A DNA stretch of 64,000 nt from Urmitella timonensis (GTDB taxonomy: Bacteria; Actinomycetota; Actinomycetes; Actinomycetales; Actinomycetaceae). This document shows, in pieces, positions 9,615 through 38,447 of this stretch. Numbering within the stretch: the first letter of the stretch is position 1; the number at the start of each line of letters is the position of its first letter. Made by a program: the position numbers and the translations under genes. Under the pieces are notes generated by a model. That model was not told the DNA's origin, ran no database searches, and was given only the letters and a program-made list of their open reading frames with translations. The DNA lies in assembly GCA_900120415.1 (NCBI GenBank), contig FQLW01000005.1, positions 124,001-188,000 of the forward strand, written 5' to 3'.

Positions 9615-9711
9615 GGACTTATCTCAGAGAACATTTACAAGATTCCTGCGAGGCGGGCGCGGTTTAGGTTCCTATGCATCATCTACTAAACTGGCGAACG
9701 TGGCTTACAAT

Positions 9712-11586: not shown

Positions 11587-11589
11587 ATC

Positions 11590-12081
11590 GTGGCATTTCG
11601 AGACATTAGGGTTATCGGTGACCCGGTTTTGCGTACCCCTTGTGAGCCGATAACTGAAATAGATGAACGAGTTAAGCAGCTGGTAGAAGATTTATTAGAG
11701 ACTGTTGATGCCGATGGGCGTGCCGGTCTAGCGGCTAACCAAATTGGGGTAGGGTTGCGCGCTTTTTCCTGGAACATCGATGGGGATGTGGACTATATTC
11801 TTAATCCCCGTCTCGTGGAGGTTTCAAAGGACGAATATCAAGACGGCGACGAGGGTTGTCTGTCGGTTCCCGGCCTATTTTTCCCCTGCCAGCGTGCCTG
11901 GTATGCCCGCGCCGAAGGAATTGACCTTGATGGCAAGCCGAAAGTGGTCGAGGGGGAAGAACTAATGGGACGTTGTATCCAGCATGAATGTGACCACTTG
12001 GATGGTCATCTCTATCTTGATCGCCTGGATCGACTCACCCGTCGGAAAGCCTTTAAAGTTATTCGCGAAAAAGGTCTGTAG
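11590..12081 (+). CDS. def: peptide deformylase
   Basis: 163-aa metallo-hydrolase that removes the N-formyl group from nascent proteins. All three family motifs are present: GLAANQIGV (residues 42-50), EGCLSVPG with the metal-binding Cys, and QHECDHLDG with HExxH. GTG start preceded by AGGAGGAA at the proS 3' end, so it is coupled to proS. It is followed by 1.4 kb without genes. Confidence 0.95.
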
Positions 12082-17605: not shown

Positions 17606-18809
17606 ATTGTGTGAAGAGTGCTTGTAATCGACCGGTTTGTGGTGTATGCGGACAAAGGCTTGTAAAGAACGGTAAGACTAGCTCTGGGCGAACCCGGTGG
17701 CGTTGCCTGTCCTGCGGGGCTTCGACAGTTAAATCACGTCCTGATATTAGCGCTAAATCCCAAGCAGACTTGTTTATAAAATGGCTGTTAGAAGGCTATT
17801 CGGTTAACCAACTCGGTCTAGCTAAAACCTCTTTTGCTACTAAAAGCGCCTGGTGTTGGCAAGTCCAGGTGCCTAAGCCCTCGGTCACTGGCGAGGTCTA
17901 CAATCAGGTGCTACTTGATGGGATCTATCTTTCCTACGGCTGGTGCTTAATCACCGCTACTAACGGCAAACAGGTAATTGACTGGCAATGGTGTCAAAGA
18001 GAAAACGGACCCGCCTATCAGGCATTAATGAACCGGCTACCCGCCCCGATGGTAGTGGTAACCGATGGCGGGGCAGGCGTCGCCAAAGCACTATGTTTGA
18101 CCTGGCCTGAAAGCCGTATCCAGCACTGTCTTTTCCATATTCGGGCTAACACCATCACTGATCTAACCCGCAAACCCAAAACTGTCGCCGGAAAAGCGCT
18201 ACTAGCTCTTACCAACCAGTTATTAACCATCAAAACCCCTCAAGAGGCCGCCAACTGGATTAGATTGCTACACCAGTGGCACCAGCTCTACCAAGACCTC
18301 ATCAACGAGAAAACCTACAGCACAGGCCCCAACACTAAAACCCGCTGGTGGTGGACACACGAACGTTTAAGGAGAGCCTACAAACGACTCGAGCGCCTTT
18401 CCCGATCCGAGCACCTATTCACCTATCTAGAGCCCGAATTCGCTAACAAAAACATTGACCACACAACCAACCAGCTAGAAGGAGGAATCAACGCCCCCAT
18501 CCGCCGCCTGCTCAACACCCACCGCGGCATATCCGAGCCACACATGAAAAAAGCCATCCAATGGCTGCTCAACCAAAAATCCATAGACCCAGCCAACCCT
18601 ATAAAATATCTCACCAACCAGCACAAACACCTAGACCAAGAAAAACTGGCTCAACCAATGCCACACCCGACCAACCCGCCCCAATACGACAACGCCATCG
18701 ACTACAACCCCAAATACCAAGACGGATCCCTACACATCCGCAAAGGCTGGACAGGACACTAACCCACCCCGACACGCCCGAAAAATACACACATTTTAGG
18801 TATTAACCC
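17518..18809 (+). mobile_element. IS1249-like insertion sequence (IS256 superfamily), copy 1
   Basis: 1292 bp with terminal inverted repeats GGGTTAATACCT at both ends. It is flanked by a perfect 8-bp direct repeat, TAAATCTA, at 17510-17517 and 18810-18817. This is the target duplication expected of the IS256 group and shows an intact, fairly recent insertion into the abi gene. It carries one transposase gene. Confidence 0.93.
17596..18762 (+). CDS. IS1249-like transposase
   Basis: 388 aa from TTG (an alternative GTG at 17611 gives MKSACNRPVC...). The N-terminal zinc ribbon is CGVCGQRLVKNGKTSSGRTRWRCLSCG. The mutator-type catalytic core has LLDGIYLSYG, VVTDGGAGVAKAL, the CLFHIRAN motif and the later QLEGGINAPIRRLLNTHRG segment with the third acidic residue. 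The C-terminus is YQDGSLHIRKGWTGH. The start overlaps the divergent abi frame by 10 bases. It appears intact. Confidence 0.9.
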   Translation: MRAYCVKSACNRPVCGVCGQRLVKNGKTSSGRTRWRCLSCGASTVKSRPDISAKSQADLFIKWLLEGYSVNQLGLAKTSFATKSAWCWQVQVPKPSVTGEVYNQVLLDGIYLSYGWCLITATNGKQVIDWQWCQRENGPAYQALMNRLPAPMVVVTDGGAGVAKALCLTWPESRIQHCLFHIRANTITDLTRKPKTVAGKALLALTNQLLTIKTPQEAANWIRLLHQWHQLYQDLINEKTYSTGPNTKTRWWWTHERLRRAYKRLERLSRSEHLFTYLEPEFANKNIDHTTNQLEGGINAPIRRLLNTHRGISEPHMKKAIQWLLNQKSIDPANPIKYLTNQHKHLDQEKLAQPMPHPTNPPQYDNAIDYNPKYQDGSLHIRKGWTGH

Positions 18810-23334: not shown

Positions 23335-23763
23335 GTGGAAACCACAGGCGAAAGGCATGAAACTTCCCTATCCGTTTCGGAAATGGGGTTTAAAGAAGAG
23401 CAAGTCATTCAAGAATTTGGTTGGGATGAAGATGTTGATGAAAATCTTCGTCAAGCCATCATGGATCAGATTGATGACGATTTAGCAGATGAAGATTTCA
23501 CCGGCATGAGTGATGGTGCCCTGATTTGGTGGCGTGATGATGACGGGAACGCCGATGATCTTTCAGATTTGCTGATGGACGCAATGGGCAATATGGATGA
23601 AGGAGGACGAATTTGGGTGCTCAGCCCAATCGCCTCTGATCCGCAGGCTGTTGATCCACGCCTAATCGAAGAGGCCGCGAAAACGGCGGGAATGAATCCC
23701 ACCACCTCGGAAGTGGTTTCTCCCCAGTGGGCGGGTACACAAATCGTTTCCCGCGGCCGCTAG
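23335..23763 (+). CDS. DUF3052 family protein
   Basis: 142-aa small acidic protein of the actinobacterial DUF3052 family: LGF-type start (MGFKEEQVIQEFGWDEDVDENLRQAIMDQ), ALIWWRDDDGN-DDLSDLLMDA and VLSPIASDPQAVDPRLIEEAAKTAGM. It is conserved next to aceE across the phylum, but its function is unknown. GTG start; a weak hairpin (CCCCAACC / GGTGGCTGGGG, 23771-23800) follows and may terminate it. The 269-base divergent gap to aceE must contain both promoters; an imperfect TACCAG/CTGGTA repeat (23209-23229) is the only structure I see there. Confidence 0.8.
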   Translation: METTGERHETSLSVSEMGFKEEQVIQEFGWDEDVDENLRQAIMDQIDDDLADEDFTGMSDGALIWWRDDDGNADDLSDLLMDAMGNMDEGGRIWVLSPIASDPQAVDPRLIEEAAKTAGMNPTTSEVVSPQWAGTQIVSRGR

Positions 23764-23863
23764 TTTTCCCGCCCCAACCCTCTGAAAAAGGTGGCTGGGG
23801 ATAGCTTGGAACGGTTTTCGTGCCGTTGGCTTTAATAGCATTTCAGGGCTCGGTAAACCGTTA

Positions 23864-24395
23864 TTAGGGCGCGTGCCGATATTTCCGGATTGCGATAATT
23901 AGGGCAGGAATCAGGAACAACAGTGCTGATAATCCCATTGTCCACACCAAGCCATAGTCATGGGTAACGACTGAGTTGGGGCGAGAAAAAGGAATCCTAT
24001 CCATAGTGGCTAGGCGTCCTAAAACTACAGCGGAAAAAACTGAAATCGTGTATGTAACCAGTAAGGATTTCAACAGTCTAAATTGACTCTTCTTTCCTCC
24101 TCCGGTCAGTTCGATAAGACGCCGTTCAATTCGCTGGTCAGATACCAATGTAGAAGATAACGTCACCAGTAATATACCCGAGATGATTATTGCTAAAAGC
24201 TGCCGCGCAACTGCCTGTGCTCGTAATTGTCTAATCTGCGGATTATCGGAGTCATTTATGGTCGCGAAAGGAGCCTGGATGAGCAGGTTTGCCCGTATCT
24301 CGTCTTGGATTTCATCGGGTAATCCAGCAAAACCAGTGATAATCGCAGTGTATGATTGAGGTTTCTTGACCCCTAACTGTTTAAGTAGCGGGGGT
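23864..24395 (-). pseudogene. C-terminal fragment of a membrane permease (FtsX-like), 5' truncated
   Basis: A frame continuous with the 100-aa ORF runs upstream to the IS junction, about 175 residues in all. An extracytoplasmic-looking stretch (PPLLKQLGVKKPQSYTAIITGFAGLPDEIQDEIRANLL; written in full it spans roughly 24290-24395) is followed by a hydrophobic helix, RRLIELTGGGKKSQFRLLKSLLVTY and two more membrane helices. This resembles the end of an ABC permease of FtsX/MacB type. It has no start and is cut by the IS3 remnant at about 24395, so it is a dead gene. Confidence 0.6.
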
Positions 24396-25481
24396 ATAGT
24401 CCGTTGACCGCTTCGGCTAGCGCGTTATCGTAGGAATTACCCACGGTCCCTGTGGAGGGATTGATCCCGTAATCAGCCAGTTTCTCGTTATAGGCAATAC
24501 TCGTGTACTGCGAGCCATGATCTAAGTGATGCGTAAGAATCACGAGAGTTTCTTTTGCTGCCTGGATGGCTTGCTCTAACGCTTCCAGCGGTAGAGACCC
24601 GGTTTTCATTGACGATCGCCTCGTCCGGCCTACAATCTTTCGGCTATAAACATCGGTTACGAACGCTGTATACACGAACCCGGATAGGGTTCGAACATAC
24701 GTGAAATCAGCAACCCATAGTTCGTTGGGGCTATTGGCCGTGAACTGCCGATTCACCAAATCCGGGCGAGAATCTGGTACTTGAGCGGGTCTGGTTGTTA
24801 TTGCTGTGCGTCCTCGGCGAACACCAGAAATCCCAGCAATCCCAGCGATCCTCATGATCCTAGTAACCTGGTCACGACCAATATCCCAGCCCGGCACCTG
24901 ACTGCGTGCCACATCTTGCGAATAGCATAGACACCGAAAATATGAGCGTGAATAGTTGCCAACTCCCTAGCAAGTATTCGATCACGAATGCTTCTGGCGC
25001 TTGCTGGTCTGCTCTTCGCTAACCGGTAGCCGCGAGAGGTAATAAACCCTCCTTCCAGACTCGCCCCCAGTACCCGGCAAATCGGCCAGGCCTCGAAACG
25101 ATCCTTATATTCGTCAATATAAGCAATCATCATCGGGTCGGACGGTTAGCTGCGCTGCGAAAAAAGCCGAGGCAGTTTTCAAAATCTCATTCGCCCAACG
25201 CAGCTGCGCATTCTCGCGTTTGAGCCGTTTGACTTCCTCATGCTCTTCACGTGAGACCCCCGCCGCTCACCCGTAACAACCAAATACTGCTCATACCAAC
25301 GGCACAATCACTCATTCCCGGCCCCCAGCTTCGCAGCAATCTCATTAACCGCCCTCCACTACGAACACGAACCATCAGCAGCTAAGCGATCCACGAGCAT
25401 ACGCACCGTACGATCCTTAAACCCCTGAGAATACCCCTTAACCATGCCCCAATCCACTCAAAAACAAGTAGGAACAAAAAC
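24396..25481 (-). mobile_element. decayed IS3-family element (remnant 1)
   Basis: Minus-strand OrfB fragments (24373-24912 and 24852-25133, frameshifted) retain DDE motifs NELWVADFTYV, DHGSQYTSIAYNEKLADYG and GNSYDNALAEAVNGLY, then end abruptly where the permease fragment begins. The OrfA part (25134-25440) reads through stops and frameshifts (KGYSQGFKDRTVRML..., LKRENAQLRWANEIL). The right end (25469-25481, AGGAACAAAA) resembles the terminus of the intact IS3 at 30,320. It lacks its OrfB 3' end. Confidence 0.85.
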
Positions 25482-25538
25482 TGTACTGAACCCTGAAAGT
25501 TGGACGGTTATTTGTTCAGTTTTAGGGTTGGGGGTGTT

Positions 25539-26027
25539 ATGCATCCTGATAGTTCGTTGTCGGTGGAGCAGCGAGCGGCGGCTGTTGATTCGTTTGAGGC
25601 GGGGTATGTTTCTCGAGCCACAGCGAGAAAACTTGGGTTGCCGTTTCGGTCGGTGAATCTTCTTTATGACAGGTGGGCTCTCCATGGGAGAATGGCGCTT
25701 GTGGCACGTGACACGAAAGCTGTTTACTCGTGGGAGTTCAAGCGCTCGATTGTTGCTCGTTTTCTTGCTGGCGAGAGTGCGACGCAGTTGGCGGCAGAGT
25801 TCAATTTTTCTTCGGTTGATATCGTGTATTCCTGGGTGCGGGTGTGGCGTTTAGCTGGCGATGAGGGCTTACGCCCGAAAAGGCGTGGCAGGAAGCCGAA
25901 AACGTTGATCGCTAGCCCTGATCCCGAGAGGAGCGCGATGGTTCCGGATGCTGCGTTAATTGAGGAGAATACGAGGTTAAAAGCAGAGGTAGTGTATTTG
26001 AAAAAATTACGAGATCTGAGGGATTAG
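25539..26027 (+). CDS. IS150-like OrfA, helix-turn-helix protein
   Basis: 162 aa with two helix-turn-helix domains: VEQRAAAVDSFEAGYVSRATARKLGLPFRSVNLLYDRW and WEFKRSIVARFLAGESATQLAAEFNFSSVDIVYSWVRVW, then a basic linker and the start of a leucine zipper (ALIEENTRLKAEVVYLKKLRDL). GTG/ATG region: ATG 25539 is preceded by GGGGGTG. Its partner orfB is in another frame, as usual for IS3 elements that make OrfAB by frameshifting. Confidence 0.85.
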   Translation: MHPDSSLSVEQRAAAVDSFEAGYVSRATARKLGLPFRSVNLLYDRWALHGRMALVARDTKAVYSWEFKRSIVARFLAGESATQLAAEFNFSSVDIVYSWVRVWRLAGDEGLRPKRRGRKPKTLIASPDPERSAMVPDAALIEENTRLKAEVVYLKKLRDLRD

Positions 26028-26048
26028 GGGCAAGGCTAAAAGACTCGT

Positions 26049-26899
26049 GTGGTTGCCACTCTCAGATCTGAATACCCGTTGCCGATACTGTTACAGGTAG
26101 CTAATCTGGCGCGATCGACGTTCTATTATCAGCTGGGGCAGATGCAGGCTCAGGACCGGCATGTGAAGTTGAAACAGGCGATTCGGAAGATTTTCGATAA
26201 AAGCCATCAGCGTTATGGTTATCGGCGGGTTAGGTTCCAGCTGCTGCGTGATGGGTGGTATGTGTCGCGCAAGCTTGTTGCTAAGTTGATGAGGCAGCTC
26301 GGTTTACGCTCTAAAACGAGGAAGCGTAAGTGTTACAACTCTTACCGCGGTACAACGTCACGTCGGGCTGATAATCATTTAGATCGGCGGTTTGCCACGG
26401 AAAAGCCGAATCAACAATGGGTCTCCGATATTACCCAGTTCCAGATCTCGGGACAGAAGCTGTATTTGTCTCCGGTGATGGATTTGTGTGATCATTCGAT
26501 TCTAGCTCACACTCTTTCGGTGTCTCCTACAACGAAAGTGTCCGCGTTGAGCCTGAAAAAGGCTTTTCGTGTAGCGGGTGATCCTGAAAAGGTGTTCTTG
26601 TTCATACTGATCAGGGTTATCACTATCAGCACCAGTCATGGATCAGTCAGCTAGTTGAGCATCAGTGCGTTCGATCTATGAGCCGTAAGGGCAATTGTTA
26701 CGATAACTCCGTGATGGAGAACTTCTTTTCTCACTTGAAAGAAGAAATATTCAACAATGACTCATTCGTTTCCATCAGCGAGCTGCGCGCAGCGATTGAC
26801 GAGTACATACAGTGGTACAACACTGAGCGTATGCAAGAACGGCTCGGAGGGATGACCCCAAACGAATACCGGCAACACGCGCTAACCCTCATCGGATAG
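26049..26899 (+). pseudogene. IS150-like OrfB transposase, frameshifted
   Basis: Two frames (26049-26654 and 26678-26899) together make a typical rve-domain transposase: HQRYGYRRVRFQLL, QQWVSDITQFQI, MDLCDHSILAHTLS, then SRKGNCYDNSVMENFFSHLKEE and YNTERMQERLGGMTPNEYR. The break is near 26600, where the expected VHTDQGYHYQ continues in another frame, implying a single-base indel. Either a real inactivating mutation or a sequencing error. Confidence 0.85.
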
Positions 26900-26932
26900 A
26901 ATCACACTGTCCAAGAATTGGGGTTCAGTACA

Positions 26933-27969
<1,037 letters not shown>

Positions 27970-28056
27970 TAATGATTAAACCTGTAGGTTCGAAGCAGGA
28001 TATCTTTTAGGTCTGTTCAACCTGCTTTGTGCTTTCTAAGCACTTAGAATAAGTGT

Positions 28057-30165
28057 GTGTCCTTAAATAATTCTCGCCCATCACATCATTCTGGCTCGCC
28101 AAATACCGTGGCTAACGGGCAAGAGCTAAGCAATGAGGTTCAGGAATTTTGCCGGCTCCTTAAGGCGAGTATAGGGGAGACCAAGAATCGGGTGGTATTT
28201 TTGGCAGGCGCAGGGCTGGGTTTTGATTCGAATCTAGCCGTGGTCGAAGATGTACTGCTAACCACATTTACGAGTTTGGGGTTGTATTCGGACGCGGAGG
28301 AAAAGCTGCAAAGCTCTCAGGGTACCCCCTTTGGGTTCCGAGAACAGTTCCAGTTTTTGTTAGATAACGTACAGCCGGAATTGATATATTCCTTGCTTCT
28401 GCAATGCAGTGACATGAATCAGGAGTGCTTAAACGGATGGAAGTCACTGAGGAAAGACAGCTGGAACCGCGATTATTATCCTCGACCAAGTCCGGTTCAT
28501 ATGTTTATCGTGGCGTATTCATACTTGGCAGGTGTTCCGATTTTAAGCATGAATTTTGACAGCATGTTTGAAGATGCTTTTACGCTGCTATGGAACAGAA
28601 TACATCCGAAAAATGCAGGTTCCGCACCAGTGAAAGTGTTGAACTTTAAGGAGCAGCCACCAAATATAGATACACAAGATACCACTAGACACCTCTATAT
28701 TTGCAAACTCCACGGCGATGTTGCCGGAGGTACAGGGAGCATCAGCGCTGACAGTATTAAAACCACACTGAGTTCGATTTGCAAATATGAGTACAGTTGG
28801 GCCCAGTTCGTATACAATCAGGCAAAAAATGAACATTTGTGCCTAGTGGGCTACAGTGGGCGAGACACTGATTTCTATCCAGAAATCAAGCGTGCTGCGA
28901 GTTCCAACCGGCAGACGTTCTGGTTCATAGGACCCAAAGCCAAGCAGAACGATGAAACTCTAGCTAACGCGCAGGGGCTGAAAAGTTCGTTAATAACTAT
29001 TTGGCCGCTACCGGCAGTTCAGCACTGCTTAGAGGATGGATTGCTAGAGGATGAATCTTTAGGCTCGGCTATGTCACGGGTGCTTCGGGATTACAACGCT
29101 AGTTTCAACCGGCCCACCAGTCAAGCAAAAGCTCGCTTTTTTCAGCACTTAAGCGCTGCGAACACCTGTAAGAAGCTTGTGAATCCCCATCTATTTTGGT
29201 TGCATGTGTATGACTCAATCGGTAGGAATCGGGAAGTGTCCGTTCGGCTTAAAAACTTTTTTGCTGAAGGAGCGTCACAGTGCTCGGAGTTGGAACCACA
29301 CGAGAAAGACATCCTGGACGAGATACGAATGCATAATGCCCGCGAGTTAGCTTCTTTTCACCAGTACTATCAGCGTGCTACGGATATTTTGACTGGGCAA
29401 GACCGACCTCCCACCAATCCACTAGTTTTGCGTGCTCGCCGTGAGCAGGTTTCAGCGTTGCAAATGGCGATTCCGCATAATCTCGGTTTCCCTCTCCCGG
29501 TTTCGCTAAGGTTCGTCATACGTTTTTGTAATTGTCTAGTTGCCTATTTATTCCGGGAGCTAAACAGCTGTTTTGTGCGGCTACCGGTGAAAGATTACCA
29601 AAATAACATTGTTACGATTCAGGAATCATTCCTGCGAGAAATAGCTTTGCATCTGCGGTTTTTACCACAGAATACCTCGCAGCGCAAAGTTGAGGTCATT
29701 GAACTCAGACTGTTGCAACTTCAGCAGCAGGCTCGGGAAGTTGGAAACTATACGACTTACACAGGCGTAGAACGTTACTTGGCCAGGTCGGATACAAGTG
29801 AACAGGGTGAGCGTCGAGAAAAAATCAAGAGCACAGTGACGATAACCGGAGAAAAAAACTATCTTAATATCGCGCAAATAGACGCTGGAGAATATGATAA
29901 GGCAATAGAGGAAACTTGCTACAACGGTAATCTTCTCAACGAGGTTAAGGCTCTGCTGCACAAGGCATACGCACGGCACACACAGAAACATACGCAGGAG
30001 AACCTATTAGAAGACGCAGAACTGGAACGACTTTTACATTTGGCTCCTCTTATTGAATCGCGTTTGTGGCGCTTCGCGCTCCAAGACATTTTGTGGCGAT
30101 ATTTTAATATTTCTCGCGCTGAGCTGAATCAGAGGTGGGCCACGGGCTTAGGGCATGCTAAGTGA
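28057..30165 (+). CDS. SIR2-domain protein, candidate antiphage NADase
   Basis: 702 aa, soluble. Residues 40-285 form a SIR2-like domain: nucleotide motif FLAGAGLGFDSN (Gly51-Ala52-Gly53), NFD (Asn166-Asp168) in PILSMNFDSMFEDAF, KLHGD with His219, and LVGYSGRD (265-270). The Asn and His expected for NAD hydrolysis are kept. Residues 290-702 are a long, mostly helical region (Leu/Gln/Arg-rich, LRLLQLQQQAREVG) with no ATPase motif that I can see, so it is not a STAND or HerA partner type. GTG start is the first possible after a stop at 28045; no Shine-Dalgarno is evident. It stands alone between IS elements in a defence island. Related SIR2 proteins deplete NAD during phage infection; that role here is inferred. 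Confidence 0.75.
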   Translation: MSLNNSRPSHHSGSPNTVANGQELSNEVQEFCRLLKASIGETKNRVVFLAGAGLGFDSNLAVVEDVLLTTFTSLGLYSDAEEKLQSSQGTPFGFREQFQFLLDNVQPELIYSLLLQCSDMNQECLNGWKSLRKDSWNRDYYPRPSPVHMFIVAYSYLAGVPILSMNFDSMFEDAFTLLWNRIHPKNAGSAPVKVLNFKEQPPNIDTQDTTRHLYICKLHGDVAGGTGSISADSIKTTLSSICKYEYSWAQFVYNQAKNEHLCLVGYSGRDTDFYPEIKRAASSNRQTFWFIGPKAKQNDETLANAQGLKSSLITIWPLPAVQHCLEDGLLEDESLGSAMSRVLRDYNASFNRPTSQAKARFFQHLSAANTCKKLVNPHLFWLHVYDSIGRNREVSVRLKNFFAEGASQCSELEPHEKDILDEIRMHNARELASFHQYYQRATDILTGQDRPPTNPLVLRARREQVSALQMAIPHNLGFPLPVSLRFVIRFCNCLVAYLFRELNSCFVRLPVKDYQNNIVTIQESFLREIALHLRFLPQNTSQRKVEVIELRLLQLQQQAREVGNYTTYTGVERYLARSDTSEQGERREKIKSTVTITGEKNYLNIAQIDAGEYDKAIEETCYNGNLLNEVKALLHKAYARHTQKHTQENLLEDAELERLLHLAPLIESRLWRFALQDILWRYFNISRAELNQRWATGLGHAK

Positions 30166-30368
30166 GGGGTACGGTTGATGCTTTGGCAACACGGGGCGCC
30201 ACAGTAGCCGGTTCGCCTCTTTAGATTGACCTGAGTACTGTAGCAAAGTTTACAGGCAGAGTCGCTGACTAGAATAATCTGCAACTGACCAAACCTTCCA
30301 AACAGACCCAAGGTAAGAGTGAAGCGTACTGGGTTTTGTTCCTATCTGTTTTTGAGAGGATTAGGAAC

Positions 30369-30689
30369 ATGGCGAAGAGGTATTCACCAGAGTTTAAGGA
30401 TCGCGCGGTGCGGATGGTTGCGGATCGTCTAGGCGATGATCCGAGCGTGACGCAGTGTCAGGCGATTCAAAGGATCGCCCCGAAGCTTGGGGTATCGAAT
30501 GAGTCATTGCGGCGCTGGTATGACCAGCACCTGATTGATTCGGGTAAGAAAGGCGGAATAACGCGTGAAGAACACGAAGAGATCAAACGGTTAAAACGCG
30601 AGAACGCGGAATTACGGCGGGCGAACGAGATTTTGAAACTCGCGTCAGCTTTTTTCGCACGAGAACTCGACCACCCCGGGAGCAAATGA
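30369..30689 (+). CDS. IS3 OrfA
   Basis: 106-aa helix-turn-helix protein: AKRYSPEFKDRAVRMVADRL, LGVSNESLRRWYDQH, and a C-terminal leucine zipper (EEIKRLKRENAELRRANEILKLASAFF). The ATG follows GAGGATTAGGAAC. The upstream extension to 30336 is inside the terminal repeat and not used. The stop overlaps the OrfB start (ATGA). Confidence 0.9.
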   Translation: MAKRYSPEFKDRAVRMVADRLGDDPSVTQCQAIQRIAPKLGVSNESLRRWYDQHLIDSGKKGGITREEHEEIKRLKRENAELRRANEILKLASAFFARELDHPGSK

Positions 30690-31594
30690 TCGCGTTCATT
30701 GACGAATATCGCGCGCGTTTCTCGGTCGAGTTCATCTGCCGGGTACTAGGCGAGCATACGATTGGCAGGTTTATCACCTCCCGTGGCTACCGGCTAGCTA
30801 AAAGTCGGCCTGCCAGCGCTAGGAGCATACGAGACCGGATGCTGATCGACGAGCTAAAGAAGATCCATGCTCGCAATTATGGCGTGTATGGGGTATGCAA
30901 GATGTGGCACGCTGCCAGGCGTGCCGGGTGGAATATCGGTCGTGACCAGGTCGCCAGGCTTATGAAGATCGCCGGTATTAGCGGTGTTCGCCGCGGCCGG
31001 GTGCCGGTGACCACCCGGCCAGCACCAGTCCCAGATACTCGCCCGGATCTAGTGAGCCGGGAGTTCAAGGCCAGCAGGCCCAACGAGCTATGGGTAGCTG
31101 ATATCACCTACGTTCGCATCTTGTCAGGGTTCGTCTACACAGCCTTTGTCACCGACGTGTACTCCAGGAAGATTGTGGGATGGTCCACCAGATCGACCAT
31201 GACCACCGAGGCTCTTCCATTGGAGGCACTTGAGCAGGCCATCATGGGCGCGAAAGAGGGTCTTGATGGTCTGGTTCATCATGCTGATCACGGCTCGCAA
31301 TACACATCGATTGCCTACAGCGATAAGCTCGCTGACTACGGGATTAAGTCTTCGACCGGTTCGGTTGGTGACTCTTACGATAACGCGCTAGCTGAGACAG
31401 TCAACGGCCTGTACAAGAGCGAGTTGATTTACTCCCAGTCCTGGAGTTCATGTACCGAGGTCGAATGGGCCACATTGAACTGGGTCCATTGGTGGAACAC
31501 TGAACGGCTCCACGAATCACTCGACTACACCACCCCCGAGGAAGTCATCACAAGATACAATCAAACCCGGTCAGCCAAGCTGACCCCCGTATAA
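30686..31594 (+). CDS. IS3 OrfB transposase
   Basis: 302-aa DDE transposase, complete. An HTH-like N-terminus (FICRVLGEHTIGRFITSRGYRLAK) and NYGVYGVCKMW precede the rve core NELWVADITYV (D), HHADHGSQYTSIAYSDKLADYG (D) and GDSYDNALAETVNGLYKSELI (E), then NTERLHESLDYTTPEEV. It seems able to move itself and perhaps related remnants. Confidence 0.92.
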   Translation: MIAFIDEYRARFSVEFICRVLGEHTIGRFITSRGYRLAKSRPASARSIRDRMLIDELKKIHARNYGVYGVCKMWHAARRAGWNIGRDQVARLMKIAGISGVRRGRVPVTTRPAPVPDTRPDLVSREFKASRPNELWVADITYVRILSGFVYTAFVTDVYSRKIVGWSTRSTMTTEALPLEALEQAIMGAKEGLDGLVHHADHGSQYTSIAYSDKLADYGIKSSTGSVGDSYDNALAETVNGLYKSELIYSQSWSSCTEVEWATLNWVHWWNTERLHESLDYTTPEEVITRYNQTRSAKLTPV

Positions 31595-31622
31595 GAAGCG
31601 GAACAAAACTCAGTACGCTTCA

Positions 31623-31860
31623 GGTGCTACCTCGCAGCGAATACCCGCTCAAACCCCACCAACTAATCCAACCCCACCACCTAAAACCCGACCCCAAACC
31701 AGGAGCCAAACAACCAAAATCAGGCCCGAAACTATGGGACAGAGCAATCGATTACGACCCCAAATACCAAGACGGATCCCTACACATCCGCAAAGGCTGG
31801 GCAGGACACTAAACCACCCCGACACGCCCGGAAAAAGACACACAAAATGTTACTTAGCCC
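31623..31860 (+). mobile_element. right-end fragment of an IS1249-like element
   Basis: About 62 codons of a transposase C-terminus (WDRAIDYDPKYQDGSLHIRKGWAGH, stop at 31810-31812) and the right terminus ending TTACTTAGCCC at 31860, closely matching the end of the copy at 35,022. The rest of that element is missing; the fragment is fused directly to the intact IS3. Confidence 0.88.
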
Positions 31861-31886
31861 GTATTTTTCGAAAAAGATTATATCGA

Positions 31887-31932
31887 AATAGCCCTGTATT
31901 TGATTTTTACACCAAATACAGGGCTATTCTTT
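31887..31932. terminator. bidirectional terminator beyond the nuclease gene
   Basis: Perfect 16-bp stem AATAGCCCTGTATTTG with its complement around a 10-base loop, with A-rich and T-rich flanks. It would end the minus-strand restriction operon about 120 bases past its stop. The AT-rich composition matches the imported RM segment rather than the host. Confidence 0.75.
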
Positions 31933-32051
31933 GCATATTGTTCAATATGTTGTGGTTTTTCCGGGTATCCTGAAACTGTATATTGTATCTTATCGCTTAT
32001 TTGTCGCTTAAATCTGCAAGCAGATAATTATCGATGATGTATGCTATGGGA

Positions 32052-32774
32052 TTATTTGCGTCCGCTTTTCTCCACTATTTTTGATAGTATGTCCCGTACA
32101 CCAACTTCGTATTCATTAAAATCTTCAATGTTTGTGTCTTTCAACCACAACTGTCCTTCGCCAACATTTCCTCTGTGTTGTCCAGATGAATAGTAGCGGT
32201 TGTTTTTGACCTCATCGCTGGAAAGCACCCAATAACGTATTACATCACGCCACACAGCAATCCAAACGAACACATCACAGCAAGCGGGTTTTATCTGTTG
32301 AAAATTCATGTCAAATCCATATTTTGAATCACTTGACAGCGCCTTAATTATCAAAGAATCCCCGCTCTTGCGCCGAACGGCTCTTGACGCTTTCACCTCA
32401 ATTCTTATGCCATCATACCAAAAGTCATATTGTCCCGAATAATCGGGGTCATAAGAGGTTGACGGACGCTGCAATTCAGGCACTACTTCATTGAGGTGCC
32501 GTTGTGCCCATGTCTCCCCAAAAGTACGCGGCGCGGTGATTTCAAAAACATACAGGTACTTGTTGCGTTCTAAGTATCTGTTGCGAATATCAAGGTATTG
32601 CTGAAGAGTGATTGTGTCTGTGCCTATCAAGTGACTTATGATGTATTCAAATTTGTTGAACGGGTAAACAAAATACAGACTGTCCAATACCTCGTCACTA
32701 AGGTTATACTTACTTCCGTTTGACTTGTTCATAGCAGTAATCTGGGTTTTCAGTTCCTTAATCAGCTTTTCCAT
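32052..32774 (-). CDS. type II-like restriction endonuclease (PD-(D/E)xK)
   Basis: 240 aa. The catalytic core is visible at about residues 115-133: GQYDFWYDGIRIEVKASRA, with the Asp and the E-x-K of the PD-(D/E)xK fold. Upstream helices and the later DVFVWIAVWRDVIRYWVL strand fit a nuclease subunit. No similarity to a named enzyme is claimed, and its target is unknown. The ATG lies inside the 3' end of the methyltransferase gene (17-base overlap), so the two are translationally coupled. AT-rich codon use differs from the chromosome; probably of Firmicute or plasmid origin. Confidence 0.75.
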   Translation of the reverse strand: MEKLIKELKTQITAMNKSNGSKYNLSDEVLDSLYFVYPFNKFEYIISHLIGTDTITLQQYLDIRNRYLERNKYLYVFEITAPRTFGETWAQRHLNEVVPELQRPSTSYDPDYSGQYDFWYDGIRIEVKASRAVRRKSGDSLIIKALSSDSKYGFDMNFQQIKPACCDVFVWIAVWRDVIRYWVLSSDEVKNNRYYSSGQHRGNVGEGQLWLKDTNIEDFNEYEVGVRDILSKIVEKSGRK

Positions 32775-34719
32775 GTACTGTTCTCCTTACATATGCTATT
32801 TGGTCGGTTGTCAATCCATATATAGAAAAAATATAGTCTTCGATGACTTCCTGCTTTGAATTGTCACCACTCAAAACTTGATCAACTAATGCCGTTAGTT
32901 CGTCGTTTTCTTCTCTCGTTATTTCTGGGAATGGCAATTCCATTAAGTTCCCTTTTAATATCTTTACTTCACCAAACAGTTTGATATATAAAAATTGATA
33001 TAATGACGAATTTAGGAATGCCATTACCGCTTTTGTGCTCATTGATGGCGTAGCGGGAATCAATATATTTGCGCTATTCAAAAATAGACTTGAGCTATCA
33101 TCATAGGCAAAAACGAGTTTATTTGATATGAACTTATACACCAACTTTTCAGGTGACCGATATATTTCTTCTTTTGCGACTTGTTGCAAATTAGCTCTAT
33201 CATACAGAATGAAATTTTGAGCAGGATGTAAAACATATGGCTGTATTTCTTTTCCTGTATATATTTTTTCCATCCCTGCAAGGCATTCGCGGAACAACTT
33301 TCCTTTATTGTCGCCTGTAACAATACCTAACGCCCAAATGCTATTTTGAAGAGAAAACTTCCCCATGCTTTTGACAATCCGAACAATAGAAAGATCATCG
33401 TCAGATAAAAGATTAAATATCAGGTTTTCGGTTTCATAAATAGTTTTGATATCTACAGCTCTTTTCTTTCCACCCGCATATACATAGAAGATATCTTTGG
33501 CAACACCTTTGCCACATTCAATATCAATATATTTTGTGGTTACTCCCGAAAACATATCGTCATATATCGTAATACCAACAAGTCCGGCTGTATTAAGAAT
33601 AAATTTTCTTATATCTTTGTGAACTTTAACATTCAAAATTGCCTCGGGGAAAAGGAACCTTATGGTACCGTTTTCTTTTAACTGTTCATATGCTTTTACA
33701 AAGAAGTATGAAAAGGTTTCTTTTGACGTTATGGTGTATATGTAGCTGTAATTATTATCCATTGCACCCCACGGGGGATTAGTTGCAATATAATCAAATG
33801 TTCTTTCAAATACTGGGTGTTGTTGTATGGCTGAATAGCCCATCAAATAATCAAAACAATAAATCTGCGGGATAAAATCAACATCCTTGTATTTGAGCAA
33901 CAAATTGATTTTAGAAATTAAGACAGCTACTTTATCGTTATCAACACCATATATCTGATTGGGATTTTTTGCGGCAACGCTCAATAAAAAAGCGCCGCTC
34001 CCGCAACATGGGTCAAAAAACAGTTCGCCATTGGAAAAGGTAAAATTCTTTGTCATATTATAGGCTATTTTTTGCGGCGTATAGTACGAACCTATAGTAT
34101 TTTTCTTTCCCTCTTGCAGAAAGGATTGATAAAGTAATCCCAAAATGTCAAATTCGTCATTTGGCAAATTTACCGCTACTAATTCATCAATAATACTAAT
34201 ATCTGCATACTCACTTAAAACGGTAGCAACGTGCTGCTTTTTGTATAATCTTTCCCTTTTTAACAGGCTAATCCCTAAAGAGAATATAGAAGACATAATA
34301 TCGAGTCTATTATCGTCTATATAGTCAAGCGTTTTCTGCACAAACGAAACATTGTTTTTATTGTTGATATACTCTAGTGGAAGGAGACGTTTTTTTGACT
34401 TTCTTTTATTAGCGCGAGTTGTTAAACGTCCATCAGATTTTGTATTAAGTTTCTCCCAGTTTCTTGCAGTAGCATCAGAGACACCATATTGCATGACTTC
34501 TGAAAAATCAGGGTGTATATCCCCTATAACTTCTACAATATCGTCAAGGCCACAATTCAAGGCTGTTGCTATCTTTGCAAGGCTGTCCATAGCCATAGGT
34601 TCGCCCTTGCCCATCTTGGCAAGAATATTTGTGCTGATACCTGCCGCTTTGCGCATTTGCGTTTTGGTCATACCTTTATCTATCAACAGTTTCCAAAGCC
34701 TGTTATAGTTGTAAATCAT
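32758..34719 (-). CDS. XRE-HTH / adenine-N6 DNA methyltransferase fusion
   Basis: 653 aa from ATG 34719 (preceded by AGGGGGG; the longer frame to 34755 lacks support). Residues 1-66 are a Cro/C1-type helix-turn-helix (KGMTKTQMRKAAGISTNILAKMGKGEPMAMDSLAKIATAL). A second HTH-like stretch (GVSDATARNWEKL) lies near residue 80. The methyltransferase has motif X (GSYYTPQKIAYNM, 211-223), motif I DPCCGSGAF (237-245) and motif IV NPPW (315-318), typical of gamma-class N6-adenine enzymes. The C-terminal half is a target-recognition-like region (ILIPATPSMSTKAVMAFLNSSLYQF). The N-terminal domain resembles a controller protein fused to the methylase, so it may repress its own operon. Confidence 0.85.
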   Translation of the reverse strand: MIYNYNRLWKLLIDKGMTKTQMRKAAGISTNILAKMGKGEPMAMDSLAKIATALNCGLDDIVEVIGDIHPDFSEVMQYGVSDATARNWEKLNTKSDGRLTTRANKRKSKKRLLPLEYINNKNNVSFVQKTLDYIDDNRLDIMSSIFSLGISLLKRERLYKKQHVATVLSEYADISIIDELVAVNLPNDEFDILGLLYQSFLQEGKKNTIGSYYTPQKIAYNMTKNFTFSNGELFFDPCCGSGAFLLSVAAKNPNQIYGVDNDKVAVLISKINLLLKYKDVDFIPQIYCFDYLMGYSAIQQHPVFERTFDYIATNPPWGAMDNNYSYIYTITSKETFSYFFVKAYEQLKENGTIRFLFPEAILNVKVHKDIRKFILNTAGLVGITIYDDMFSGVTTKYIDIECGKGVAKDIFYVYAGGKKRAVDIKTIYETENLIFNLLSDDDLSIVRIVKSMGKFSLQNSIWALGIVTGDNKGKLFRECLAGMEKIYTGKEIQPYVLHPAQNFILYDRANLQQVAKEEIYRSPEKLVYKFISNKLVFAYDDSSSLFLNSANILIPATPSMSTKAVMAFLNSSLYQFLYIKLFGEVKILKGNLMELPFPEITREENDELTALVDQVLSGDNSKQEVIEDYIFSIYGLTTDQIAYVRRTVHGKAD

Positions 34720-34812
34720 AAAAAAGCCCCCCTGTGCATGGCTACAAATAACCATTAAAAAGTATGGTACAGCAGGGCTATTTTTTCAATATTATGTCAC
34801 GTTTTCGTGATT

Positions 34813-35021
34813 TCATTTTTTCAATGTGCAGTACAGTGTCAAGTCCTGCTTGTACCCCTCAAAAAGTGTCAATCCGGGTGATGTTGTACAGTCTGCCGTT
34901 ATACCGGATAACATTTGCCGTGGTCAGGTCGGTGCGGTAATTCACCTGAAACAACACTTCTTCCTTATAATTGACGGTTGCCCCCGCGATTACTTCCTTG
35001 CTGGACAGGTGGCGGCAATAT
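34813..35021 (-). pseudogene. phage head-tail adaptor remnant
   Basis: Minus strand reads CRHLSSKEVIAGATVNYKEE, VLFQVNYRTDLTTANVIRYN, GRLYNITRIDTF, then after a one-base shift EGYKQDLTLYCTLKK and stop. This is the C-terminal half of a phage head closure / head-tail joining protein (SPP1 gp16-like family). The 5' half is cut off by the IS1249-like copy at 35022. AT/GC composition and neighbours suggest a Firmicute-type prophage that arrived with the RM genes. Confidence 0.7.
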
Positions 35022-36311
35022 GTGTTAATACCTGAATTGTGTGTATAAATTCGTTGTTTTTTGGGGTTTTATCAGGGGTTATGATGGTTTGAATATGCTT
35101 TGAGAGCATATTGTGTGAAGAGTGCTTGTAATCGACCGGTTTGTGGTGTATGCGGACAAAGGCTTGTAAAGAACGGTAAGACTAGCTCTGGGCGAACCCG
35201 GTGGCGTTGCCTGTCCTGCGGGGCTTCGACAGTTAAATCACGTCCTGATATTAGCGCTAAATCCCAAGCAGACTTGTTTATAAAATGGCTGTTAGAAGGC
35301 TATTCGGTTAACCAACTCGGTCTAGCTAAAACCTCTTTTGCTACTAAAAGCGCCTGGTGTTGGCAAGTCCAGGTGCCTAAGCCCTCGGTCACTGGCGAGG
35401 TCTACAATCAGGTGCTACTTGATGGGATCTATCTTTCCTACGGCTGGTGCTTAATCACCGCTACTAACGGCAAACAGGTAATTGACTGGCAATGGTGTCA
35501 AAGAGAAAACGCGCCCGCCTATCAGGCATTAATGAACCGGCTACCCGCCCCGATGGTAGTGGTAACCGATGGCGGGGCAGGCGTCGCCAAAGCACTATGT
35601 TTGACCTGGCCTGAAAGCCGTATCCAGCACTGTCTTTTCCATATTCGGGCTAACACCATCACTGATCTAACCCGCAAACCCAAAACTGTCGCCGGAAAAG
35701 CGCTACTAGCTCTTACCAACCAGTTATTAACCATCAAAACCCCCGAAGAAGCCGGCCAGTGGCTTAGCCTGTCACAACACTGGTATCAGGTATATCGCGA
35801 TTACATTAACGAGAAAACCTACGGTCTTGAACCAAGATCAAGGAAATGGTGGTGGACACACAAGCCAGTCCGAAAATCCTATAAACGCCTTGAACGCCTA
35901 GCCCGATCCGGTTACTTGTTTACCTGGCTCGACCCGAAATTCACTGGGCTTGATATTGAGCGCACTACCAGCAGCCTTGAAGGCGGGGTTAACGCCGCGA
36001 TCCGTCGCCTACTTAACACCCATCGCGGCCTATCCGAACCCCACATGAAAACAGCGGTCGAATGGGGGTTAAACCACAAATCTATCGATCCGGCAATCCC
36101 TACCACCTGGCTCGCCAAAAATCGCCACAACACCAGCCAACAACAGCCGCATCCAGCCACCAACGACCCGATCGGCCCGGCCATCTACGACAACGCCATC
36201 AACTACAACCCCGCCTATCAAGACGGCTCTCTTCACATCCGCAAAGGCTGGGCAGACCACTAAACCACCCCAACACGCCCGGAAAAAGACACACAAAATG
36301 TTACTTAGCCC
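35022..36311 (+). mobile_element. IS1249-like insertion sequence, copy 2 (mosaic)
   Basis: 1290 bp from GTGTTAATACCT to TTACTTAGCCC. The first about 720 bp are nearly identical to copy 1 (two differences seen, at the GGA/GCG codon); after about 35742 the two diverge sharply. No target duplication: the left flank is GGCAATAT and the right flank CATGAATG. The left end lies in a phage gene and the right end beside an IS3 half, so recombination rather than simple insertion shaped it. Confidence 0.9.
35100..36263 (+). CDS. IS1249-like transposase (mosaic)
   Basis: 387 aa. The zinc ribbon and the first catalytic part (residues 1-213) are the same as in copy 1 apart from one residue. From LLTIKTPEEAGQWL on, only about 60% of residues match, but key motifs remain (KWWWTHKPVRKSYKRLERLARSG, SLEGGVNAAIRRLLNTHRG, YQDGSLHIRKGWADH). 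The frame is intact, so it may be active. Confidence 0.88.
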   Translation: MRAYCVKSACNRPVCGVCGQRLVKNGKTSSGRTRWRCLSCGASTVKSRPDISAKSQADLFIKWLLEGYSVNQLGLAKTSFATKSAWCWQVQVPKPSVTGEVYNQVLLDGIYLSYGWCLITATNGKQVIDWQWCQRENAPAYQALMNRLPAPMVVVTDGGAGVAKALCLTWPESRIQHCLFHIRANTITDLTRKPKTVAGKALLALTNQLLTIKTPEEAGQWLSLSQHWYQVYRDYINEKTYGLEPRSRKWWWTHKPVRKSYKRLERLARSGYLFTWLDPKFTGLDIERTTSSLEGGVNAAIRRLLNTHRGLSEPHMKTAVEWGLNHKSIDPAIPTTWLAKNRHNTSQQQPHPATNDPIGPAIYDNAINYNPAYQDGSLHIRKGWADH

Positions 36312-36314
36312 CAT

Positions 36315-36440
36315 GAATGCTAAAGAGCACCTGTCTGGATTGGTTCACCACTTAAGTAACGAATCTCAGTACACGAGTATTACCTATAACGACAAACTCG
36401 CTCAGTGGGGAATCAAACCCTCCACTGGCGCACTAATGCC
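36315..36440 (+). mobile_element. IS3 remnant 3, right part
   Basis: Reads NAKEHLSGLVHHLSNESQYTSITYNDKLAQWGIKPSTGAL, the OrfB stretch that should directly follow [11 protein letters not shown] at 27939. It is fused on the left to the right end of IS1249 copy 2 and decays after about 36430. Confidence 0.8.
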
Positions 36441-36486
36441 CATTTGGGTATTAACCCCAATTTCGTCGCCCTCACTATTGCGAAAA

Positions 36487-36584
36487 CCCGAACGATTTTC
36501 GTACCGTTCGGGCTCCTCCTGTGCCAGTAATCCCTAACGGGATTACGCACGGTTTCCTCACTCTCACTAGCAAGCAAGCTTGCT
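36487..36584. other. three short hairpins between island and tRNA
   Basis: CCCGAACG/CGTTCGGG (36487-36512), GTAATCCC/GGGATTAC (36527-36546, 4-base loop) and AGCAAGC/GCTTGCT (36569-36584). The last is just downstream of the tRNA-Val 3' end and could terminate it; the others are unexplained. Confidence 0.45.
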
Positions 36585-36601
36585 GTTCGAGTTCGTCACG
36601 G

Positions 36602-36675
36602 TGGGCCCAGAGGGACTCGAACCCCCGACATCCACGGTGTAAACGTGGCGCTCTAGCCAACTGAGCTATAGGCCC
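36602..36675 (-). tRNA. tRNA-Val (anticodon UAC)
   Basis: Minus-strand cloverleaf: acceptor GGGCCTA pairs with TGGGCCC (one G-T pair), D arm GCTCAGTTGGCTAGAGC, anticodon stem CCACG/CGTGG with loop TTTACAC giving UAC, T arm CGGGGGTTCGAGTCCCTCTG (slightly extended), discriminator A, CCA not encoded. It marks the right edge of the mobile region. Confidence 0.95.
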
Positions 36676-36839
36676 TAGACCTGTTAAAGAATACCCAATC
36701 TCGACAGAGAAACAAACTTGACAGAGTGTGATATGAATCGAACTCATAAAACCCGTGCCAATACCAACAAATCTGGCGGTAGAGAATAAAATGACGCGCC
36801 CTCCTGCCCGCGCGCCCTATTGCAGCCCTGGGGGAGAGC

Positions 36840-38447
36840 ATGGGAAAATCAGGAGAAGCGATTAGTGGAAAGGGGGCGGCGCAAATCCTAGAAGAATCAC
36901 GGGTCAGCAAACAAGACCTAGAACGAGCCTATGACCTGGTTCGCCGTGTACGCGCACGCCACCCAAACCCACACGTAACAGACGCCGCCCCAGCTATCGC
37001 AAATCAAAACCAATCCGATAACTATCCGCCCGCGGAACAAAAAGGGCTAGAACTACTGGATTGGACGAGTACCGCGCTATCTAGACAAAGTTCGCACGGT
37101 GGAGATTTCTCGCGGCAATTGCGAGAAGAATTTCAACGTACGAACGCCTCTGACCTGGATATTTCAGAGGTCGAGTATCGCCGGGTTCAGTTAGAAAAAG
37201 TATTCCTTGTGGGCATATATGACCATGACCGCTCTCATGCGCAGCAGTCCCTATCGGAACTCGCGGCGCTTGCCCAAACCGCAGGTGCCGAACTGGTAAG
37301 CGCGGCTTTGCAGCGACGCAGCACCCCGGATGCGGCAACTTTCGTAGGGCGAGGTAAAGCTAAAGAGTTAGCCGAGCAGATAGCGGCGCTGAACGCCGAC
37401 ACCGTAGTCGTAAATGCCCAGCTCCAGCCCTCCCAGCGGCGAGGACTGGAAGACATAGTTCAAGTGAAAGTTATCGACCGCACCGCCGTAATCCTGGATA
37501 TTTTCGCCCAACACGCCTCCTCGCGCGAGGGGAAAGCCCAAGTGGAACTAGCGCAGCTACAATACCTGCTGCCCCGCCTTCGGGGCTGGGGGCAATCAAT
37601 GTCTCGCCAGGCAGGAGGACGCGTGTCGGGAGGAGCCGGAATCGGCGCGCGCGGCCCGGGCGAAACCAAACTGGAAACCGACCGTCGTCGGATTACCAAG
37701 CGAATCGCGAAACTGCGCCGCGAGATTCAACAAATGAAAAAAGGACGGGACACTAAACGGGAAAGCCGTCTGCAAAGCGCCCTGCCCTCAGTGGTAATCG
37801 TGGGCTACACCAACGCCGGAAAATCCTCTCTACTAAATGTCCTGGTAGACGCGGATGTGATGGTGCAAGATGCCCTGTTTGCTACTCTAGATCCCACCGT
37901 GCGCCAGGCGCAAACCCCCGATGGGCGCAGCTACACCCTAACCGACACGGTAGGTTTTATTGATGAACTTCCGCACGAGCTGGTAGAAGCTTTCCGCTCC
38001 ACCCTAGAGGAAGTTGAATACTCCGATGTAATCGTGCACGTAGTAGATGCCAGCCACCAGAACCCCTCCCATCAGGTAGAAACCGTTAAGGAAGTGTTGG
38101 GGGAGCTAACCAACATTTCTGCGATCCCCCAAATTATCGTCCTCAACAAAGCAGATTTGGTAGATGCATTCCATATCCGCGCACTGCAATCGTTAATACC
38201 TGGGGCGATAGCGCTCTCGACCCGCAGCGGGCAAGGTCTTAGCCAGCTCCGCGAAGCAATCGGCAAAGCGCTACCTGCGCCCGCTAAACCCATAGATTAC
38301 GTAATTCCCTATAGTCATTCTGCTCTGGTAGCCCGACTCCACCAGGAGGGTATCGTCGATACCGTGGAGTATCTAGAACAGGGCACTCATGTTATAGGGC
38401 GAGCTGGACCGGCCTTGGCGCAAGCCATATTGGAAGTGGCGAACTAG
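36840..38447 (+). CDS. hflX: GTPase HflX
   Basis: 535-aa ribosome-associated GTPase (splits stalled ribosomes). N-terminal HflX domain: LSELAALAQTAGAELVSAALQRR, FVGRGKAKELA, QLQPSQRRGLEDIVQVKVIDRTAVILDIFAQHA, then SGGAGIGARGPGETKLETDRR. G domain: G1 GYTNAGKSSL, G3 DTVGFIDELP, G4 NKAD. The first about 100 residues are a low-conservation extension seen in actinobacterial HflX. ATG preceded by GGGGGAGA. It directly abuts the helicase gene. Confidence 0.95.
   Translation: MGKSGEAISGKGAAQILEESRVSKQDLERAYDLVRRVRARHPNPHVTDAAPAIANQNQSDNYPPAEQKGLELLDWTSTALSRQSSHGGDFSRQLREEFQRTNASDLDISEVEYRRVQLEKVFLVGIYDHDRSHAQQSLSELAALAQTAGAELVSAALQRRSTPDAATFVGRGKAKELAEQIAALNADTVVVNAQLQPSQRRGLEDIVQVKVIDRTAVILDIFAQHASSREGKAQVELAQLQYLLPRLRGWGQSMSRQAGGRVSGGAGIGARGPGETKLETDRRRITKRIAKLRREIQQMKKGRDTKRESRLQSALPSVVIVGYTNAGKSSLLNVLVDADVMVQDALFATLDPTVRQAQTPDGRSYTLTDTVGFIDELPHELVEAFRSTLEEVEYSDVIVHVVDASHQNPSHQVETVKEVLGELTNISAIPQIIVLNKADLVDAFHIRALQSLIPGAIALSTRSGQGLSQLREAIGKALPAPAKPIDYVIPYSHSALVARLHQEGIVDTVEYLEQGTHVIGRAGPALAQAILEVAN

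Follow-up and report, generated by a model that had tools for sequence, protein, structure and literature searches.

A candidate single-gene antiphage sirtuin with a predicted TPR-like C-terminus on an insertion-sequence-associated segment of Urmitella timonensis

Known antiphage sirtuins sense infection via large bespoke domains, STAND ATPases, second messengers, nucleotides or guide RNA. Here we analysed a 64,000-nucleotide stretch of Urmitella timonensis (contig FQLW01000005.1, positions 124,001 to 188,000 of the forward strand; hereafter the window), in which one gene encodes a SIR2 domain followed by a predicted tetratricopeptide repeat (TPR)-like superhelix. Its proposed working is likened to that of DSR2 and Avs5. 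In the part of the DSR2 report drawn on here, mutation of N133 or H171 lowers the nicotinamide adenine dinucleotide (NAD) hydrolase (NADase) activity, and the C-terminal domain binds a phage tube protein (PMC10981675). The Avs5 report, consulted in excerpt, includes TPRs among the sensors of that system (PMC12931631). For a third system, Kongming, structure titles (KomBC-dITP) indicate that dITP is bound by a HAM1-SIR2 complex.

Taking all evidence together, we put a probability of roughly 0.58 on the window gene being a one-gene abortive-infection system, carried on a mobile segment associated with insertion sequences (IS), that depletes NAD in a DSR/Avs5-like manner without an ATPase. The gene and its two parts are:

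28057..30165, forward strand: SIR2/TPR-like single gene, 702 amino acids, GTG start, without internal stop
28129..29043, forward strand: SIR2_2-type NAD-binding domain, residues ~25-329, with G51-A-G53, N166, H219 and GYSGRD at 265-270, without a CxnC zinc pair
29053..30162, forward strand: predicted C-terminal all-helical TPR-like superhelix, residues ~333-702, clearest in relative L016 and fast evolving

Architecture and comparison with described systems

The open reading frame (ORF) with a SIR2 domain that the initial annotation had reported proved to be real. Pfam SIR2_2 (PF13289) scored 39.9 bits at residues 162-308 (cut-off 24.5, E 5.6e-10). In a congener, G206, the frame is likewise uninterrupted, at 85% amino-acid identity, and full-length relatives occur in other phyla, so the ORF is more than a chance frame. 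Its start codon is uncertain: relatives start near residue 24, and the next in-frame start that we noticed would cut into the Rossmann fold. Nothing besides SIR2_2 scored above a Pfam cut-off in the window protein; a DUF2661 match (E 0.018, below the cut-off; 0.0063 with the C-terminus alone) was taken as chance, being found in no other member of the family.

SIR2_2 was matched at E 0.1 or better by all seven full-length members, window included, and an alignment of these showed that A50, G51, G53, N166, F167, D168, H219, G220 and GYSGRD (265-270) are invariant. GAG (51-53), Asn166, His219 and GYSGRD were all found at the residues given in the initial annotation, but GAG is not a fixed motif, since A52 varies and members read AGAG or AGSG. 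Asn166 sits in NFD and His219 in HG. When the family profile was aligned to KomC, its best sequence match among solved structures (E 2.9e-4), the family Asn fell in the column of the Asn of KomC TTN(Y)D and the family His in that of KomC His146, seen through an H146N entry. A CxnC pair (n=2-4) was sought in the first 330 residues and found in none of the seven members, so the family seems to lack the zinc module of deacetylase sirtuins. This module is needed for deacetylation and missing from SIR2_2 proteins, according to the part of PMC12700824 consulted.

Because the model of the window protein was too weak for the C-terminus, we also modelled the Desulfobacterales relative L016 from the same 9 sequences (predicted local distance difference test, pLDDT, 86.6; predicted template modelling score, pTM, 0.83). 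The SIR2 fold was kept in structure prediction, and the SIR2 part of the window model best matched SPARSA (8y80, Z 13.2), ThsA (8bto, 13.0) and DSR2 (8wyc, 11.5). It matched EfAvs5 with Z 10.8 (264 residues, 5.4 Å), and Sir2-type deacetylases reached Z 10.0 or less among the best 50 matches listed. For the SIR2 part of the L016 model the values were 20.7 for SPARSA (261 aligned, 3.3 Å), 19.2 for ThsA and 18.4 for KomC. By fold, the SIR2 part of the models is thus closer to antiphage NADases than to deacetylases. Families missing from the structural match lists were not taken as excluded.

The C-terminus, which the initial annotation had called helical and uncharacterised, was indeed helical in both models, but it is predicted to be a TPR-like superhelix and not an arbitrary tail. 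In L016 it forms consecutive helix pairs with block pLDDT mostly 80-97. The repeat proteins matched by the L016 model were a subunit of the anaphase-promoting complex (chain O, presumably APC5; Z 21.0), the APPBP2 complex (18.8), NprR (17.8), RapF (17.4), Rap protein 4gyo (16.5) and LGN 5a6c (16.0). The ranges of 4gyo and LGN lie wholly inside the L016 C-terminus, and those of the others begin in the SIR2 part. The prediction is a statement of fold only; TPR superhelices are general protein or peptide binders. In a Foldseek search with the L016 model, DSR2 chains held the first 11 ranks, with TM-scores to full-size DSR2 chains below 0.3, so the overall likeness to DSR2 is one of layout. In BFVD no match reached E 0.001, the closest being a giant-virus repeat protein (0.0021).

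We then compared the family with described systems. No full-length match to a described system, which would have spoken against the single-gene proposal of the initial annotation, was found for the window protein by Pfam, PADLOC or NCBIfam. In five relatives scanned singly, PADLOC matches lay within about the first 250 residues and NCBIfam matches within the first 215, and profiles of known defence systems in general aligned to the SIR2 part only.

The family resembles DSR1 and DSR2 in being a single chain with an N-terminal SIR2_2 NADase-type domain, with its Asn and His, and a large helical C-terminal part. Of the NCBIfam models, DSR1 is the one with matches in most members (5/7), in the SIR2 part only. 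The differences lie in length, with models of about 1215-1263 positions against 632-704 amino acids in the family, and in the C-terminus. The 1400 bits of the DSR1 model NF041818 (1263 positions) were not reached: the window protein had no match at E 1, and the best relative scored 33.8 bits over positions 20-220 only. Nor were the 1400 bits of the DSR2 model NF041819 (1215 positions), for which the window protein had no match and one relative scored 13.8 bits over positions 116-163. With hhalign, the probability of a match between the family's C-terminal profile and Pantoea DSR1 was 0.2%; it was 0.1-0.3% across the eight SIR2 proteins that included DSR1 and 0.3-0.6% for the longest ORFs of loci L101-L104. 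The L101 ORF is not a SIR2 protein, which leaves 11 SIR2 proteins, and single template sequences make this a weak test.

Avs5 joins its SIR2 effector to a sensor of TPR-type repeats within a single protein (PMC12931631), and the family would do the same, but the superhelix follows SIR2 directly, without a STAND ATPase found between. Pfam gave no match to STAND or another ATPase in the seven members at E 0.1, and the segment after SIR2 consists of helical hairpins in the L016 model.

The same SIR2 fold is found in ThsA, SPARSA SIR2-APAZ, KomC and SIR2-HerA, the first three being the best structural matches of the SIR2 part. The initial annotation had noted the lack of a partner gene of these kinds, and we agree: of the 13 ORFs of at least 100 amino acids in the island (23.3-36.3 kb), the 10 scanned contained no ATPase, Argonaute, TIR or HerA gene, the other three being two antisense ORFs and an FtsX remnant. 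This separates the locus from SIR2-HerA (Nezha), which has an ATPase gene, and from SPARSA, of whose APAZ region the scans showed no sign and whose PADLOC SIR2/pAgo models cover only residues 164-286 of the window protein. ThsA differs in its SLOG domain, which was not matched in the seven members; the C-terminus is all-helical in the two models. Kongming (KomABC) differs in that no HAM1-type KomB and no KomA was found among the 20 window proteins scanned. The PADLOC candidate PDC-S65 has a similar model length (592 positions) and its SIR2 part matches 4/7 members, but these matches stop at model position 193 and the window protein is unmatched. At partial coverage the PDC-S65 model found four loci; in three of these the C-terminus does not match that of the family. 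No paper on PDC-S65 was found, and the literature consulted on SIR2 with tetratricopeptide or TPR yielded no SIR2-TPR protein without ATPase, a search that is no proof of novelty as most subscription journals lay outside its scope. In our best reading of these comparisons, the protein would be a single-chain antiphage sirtuin of a known kind, without ATPase and with a sensor that is unlike DSR1 and DSR2 by sequence.

The family sharing this architecture is rare, with seven full-length members of 632-704 amino acids from four phyla or classes and two cut or broken ones. Of 213 genomes of the window's taxonomic family, three carry the protein, namely the window's own, G206 and G153 (32% identity). 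A pattern scan of species genomes, which was not exhaustive, found full-length members in Propionibacteriaceae (L013), Chlorobiales (L014), Desulfobacterales (L016) and Pseudoalteromonas (L017), and cut or broken copies in Geobacter (L015) and Anaerolineaceae (L018). Broader genome samples were searched with the seven-row alignment, which matched 10/396 genomes in the window's phylum, 17/398 in the phylum of L017 and 2/297 in that of L016. Each time the match was full-length only in the member's own genome; non-self matches in the first two samples were all confined to the SIR2 part, and in the third G1279 gave a short weak match. A plasmid search with L017 returned seven records, in the SIR2 part only. 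Single-sequence scans of genome contigs, plasmids and phages found no relative, and neither did a search of viral contigs with two alignments.

Seven weak C-terminal matches (residues 548-634) from a phylum search were rejected as chance similarity to DNA polymerase I. By eye, the longest ORFs of L006, L007, L009, L010 and L011 read as this enzyme; L005 and L008, whose longest printed ORF is in another frame, were assumed to be the same. The eighth non-self match of that search was confined to the SIR2 part. Two SIR2 proteins of similar length (a 675 aa ORF in L004, genome G304, and a 690 aa ORF in L055) have tails that look repeat-like and helical by eye and do not match the profile of the family C-terminus. 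Such short SIR2-repeat proteins may have originated on several occasions.

Movement of the gene and selection on its two domains

The SIR2 gene lies between IS pieces. The elements around it are:

26933..27935, forward strand: decayed 5' remnant of an IS3-family element; stops within orfA, orfB truncated at 27935, 3' part missing
27936..30224, forward strand: SIR2-carrying segment joined to this IS relic; junction common to the G206 copy, sequences diverging after 30224
25500..26899, forward strand: second IS directly left of the relic; orfA-like 25500-26027, orfB pieces 26049-26654 and 26678-26899
30320..31622, forward strand: third IS, IS3 type, directly right of the SIR2 segment; orfA 30336-30689, orfB 30686-31594, limits from end-repeat matches
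35100..36263, forward strand: MULE/Mutator-type transposase, right edge of the island

The relic amounts to about 72% of a dead IS3-family element and shares 93% identity with a full-length copy from congener G207 (L078:1312-2701), which has both ends with a 20/24 inverted repeat and whose own orfB may be broken. Window positions 27694-30224 are 92% identical to 9449-11986 of G206 contig L058, with the same relic and junction before the gene. The G206 copy (L058:8959-11986) carries an open orfA in its relic and is missing 260 bases present in the window, so the decay of the two relics took different courses once the junction had formed.

In the window the unit sits between DUF3052 and hflX, where it is absent in 5/5 congeners. 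In G206 the relic precedes the gene and a cupin-like gene follows it; this right flank (cupin-like gene and purL, by eye) lies about 310 kb away in the window's genome, and a whole-genome protein search of that genome found no second SIR2 copy of the same kind. The synonymous divergence (dS) between the two genomes is 0.85 for DUF3052 and 1.2 for part of hflX, and about 0.10 for the SIR2 gene. With core-gene dS some tenfold that of the SIR2 gene and with differing sites, the species had long been separate when the unit was exchanged or moved. The SIR2 unit has moved recently between species at different sites.

We considered and dropped the idea that the gene is cargo between two ends of one IS. 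The window relic itself lacks one IS end, and the IS 3' part was found neither beside the gene in the window nor in L058; the search for it yielded nothing beyond 72-73% matches to two further IS copies and a 19-base match to the end.

Selection on the two domains was examined by comparing the window and G206 copies. Residues 25-320 carry 29.5 non-synonymous and 21.5 synonymous differences, with a ratio of non-synonymous to synonymous rates (dN/dS) of 0.38 (bootstrap 0.21-0.72). For residues 321-702 there are 91 and 22, respectively, with a dN/dS of 1.29 (bootstrap 0.83-2.2). This contrast was significant (Fisher p 0.004), the observed dN difference was reached in 0/5000 permutations, and YN00 gave values of 0.59 for SIR2 and 1.87 for the C-terminus. 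The C-terminal non-synonymous rate (91/877 sites) exceeded the divergence of the linked relic (56/853; p 0.006). In the distant pair L014-L016 the C-terminus was also the faster part (0.195 vs 0.090 for SIR2), and its identity was lower than that of the SIR2 part in 21/21 family pairs. To judge from these sequence comparisons, the uneven constraint fits a C-terminal sensor in an arms race, with relaxed constraint as the alternative.

Proposed working and alternatives

By analogy with DSR2, from which the order of events is taken, the steps beyond the fold are most likely as follows. The N-terminal SIR2 domain would be a latent NAD hydrolase using Asn166 and His219, and the C-terminal superhelix a sensor that binds a protein or peptide made during phage infection. 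Ligand binding would release or oligomerise the SIR2 domains; once active, these would hydrolyse NAD+, and the infected cell would stop growing before phage release. Sensor and effector would thereby share one chain as in DSR2, and SIR2 would be paired with a TPR-type sensor as in Avs5, minus the STAND ATPase. The parts of this proposal differ in strength. NADase activity is very probable, a role in phage defence is probable, and direct sensing by the C-terminus is somewhat favoured. The suggestion of the initial annotation that the C-terminus might be the sensor is in line with the TPR-like fold predicted in the L016 model and with its fast evolution.

Several observations weigh against the one-gene reading. 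The family is rare, phage and viral collections yield no member of it, and the defence island is thin, with one restriction-modification (RM) pair and IS elements. By eye there is no clear ribosome site upstream of the window gene, and no sigma-70 promoter or terminator was found at it above shuffled expectation. The window model was only moderate (pLDDT 66.2, pTM 0.57), and the TPR-like fold was read from a relative that shares 23% identity with the window protein. Helical repeats commonly score high Z, which weakens the TPR-like matches, and Pfam TPR models gave no usable E-value in six C-termini (best E 5.8). The C-terminal dN/dS interval of 0.83-2.2 includes 1. Synonymous rates are also above relic divergence (p 0.41 for the C-terminus, 0.050 for SIR2) and orfA is open in G206, so the relic, perhaps under partial constraint itself, is an imperfect yardstick. 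To these we add the kinase-like genes upstream of two relatives, described below.

A more specific form of the proposal is a peptide-gated NADase. In it, a short phage peptide, a phage linear motif or a phage communication peptide in an NprR/Rap/LGN-type groove would switch NAD destruction on or off, in a self-contained gene spreading with IS elements. We regard this as a long shot; none of the SIR2 systems in the literature consulted has a peptide-receptor-type TPR sensor and lacks an ATPase.

It is also conceivable, if unlikely, that the SIR2/TPR protein serves as effector in a system of several parts, with the signal coming from elsewhere, for example from a modified nucleotide made with a nucleotide kinase in a Kongming-like manner, and with the TPR-like domain binding a partner protein rather than a phage product. 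We keep this nucleotide link as a rival because a cytidylate-kinase-like gene lies 9 bp upstream of L014 and a nucleoside-kinase-like gene (by eye) lies 22 bp upstream of L015, whose start is assumed. PurA-like and dCTP-deaminase-like genes precede the L015 kinase, and KomC is, as noted, the best profile match among solved structures. However, the L014 and L015 kinases gave no mutual blastp match at 1e-3, HAM1 was unmatched in the 20 window proteins scanned, and upstream of the SIR2 gene in the window, in G206 and in L016 no kinase-like gene has its end within 200 bp (the contig of L017 reaches just 349 bp upstream, and L013 has only a 48-aa ORF there). The earlier claim that no companion gene lies beside the SIR2 gene holds for these three loci but not for L014 and L015.

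Rather doubtful is the idea that a transposon-associated segment carries the gene as a passenger whose function is being lost in these Actinomycetaceae, so that the high C-terminal dN/dS would reflect decay. The linked IS is dead, the start site is unclear, and the whole-gene dN/dS between window and G206 is 0.83, against 0.146 for the L014-L016 pair. Against decay, the 168 nucleotide differences between the two copies include 0 stops where about 7.3 are expected without constraint (P about 6e-4), and the only indel is in frame. The SIR2 part is constrained, and the C-terminal non-synonymous rate exceeds relic divergence, although the relic may itself be partly constrained. Quite improbable is a sirtuin-type ADP-ribosyltransferase or deacylase whose TPR-like domain recruits a substrate protein, making it a regulator or toxin and not an NAD-depleting effector: TPR superhelices bind generally and canonical sirtuins match the fold with Z up to 10.0, but the CxnC pair is absent from all seven members, the fold is nearer to antiphage NADases and deacylase models match weakly, in at most 2/7 members.

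If the one-gene NAD-depletion reading is true, the family offers a minimal sensor-effector pair of about 630-700 residues that lends itself to expression, mutagenesis and structure determination, and it would show directly whether a repeat superhelix can gate a SIR2 NADase by itself. The window and G206 copies (85% identity), with a conserved enzyme and a diverged sensor, are a ready pair for domain swaps. If confirmed, the system would add a one-gene defence to Actinomycetaceae.

Neighbouring genes

One further defence locus lies within the island, 1.9 kb downstream of the SIR2 gene and outside the proposed system:

32052..34755, reverse strand: type II RM pair; methyltransferase with helix-turn-helix (HTH) 32758-34755, restriction endonuclease 32052-32774

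The GC content of the RM pair is low (0.373 vs 0.506 for the window), and its methyltransferase carries an N-terminal Cro-type HTH. Another gene, at 16643-17605 on the reverse strand, encodes an Abi_2 protein (PF07751, E 1.7e-50) and sits beside a MULE/Mutator transposase (17596-18762); it is a separate abortive-infection gene, 10.5 kb from the SIR2 gene, with aceE (named by eye) between it and the SIR2 island. We take Abi_2 to have a HEPN fold. The IS-rich island with HEPN and RM genes of the initial annotation is accordingly IS-rich and does hold the RM pair, but its HEPN-type gene, probably Abi_2, lies outside the island.

The DUF3052-hflX gap (window 23763-36840) is a variable spot. Three of five congeners are nearly empty there (about 155-416 bases), and the other two carry ABC/FtsX genes; window 23864-24166 is the remnant of an FtsX gene of the type found in that gap in congeners. 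Elsewhere in the family, the G153 copy lies among transposase remnants (by eye), and L016 is followed by DUF3786 and a decarboxylase gene. In Geobacter (L015:3206-7912), genes for an RNase_H_2 + AAA_18 protein and for PurA-like, dCTP-deaminase-like and kinase-like (by eye) proteins stand in a row before the SIR2/TPR-type gene, and this nucleotide-metabolism cluster may form a separate system. In G207, L079:2560-3711 encodes a protein that reads as AbiH-like by eye (ILGNGFDLSHGLPTKY). It immediately follows a broken IS copy, of the same IS3 type as the relic ahead of the SIR2 gene. This IS3 type may repeatedly sit beside Abi genes.

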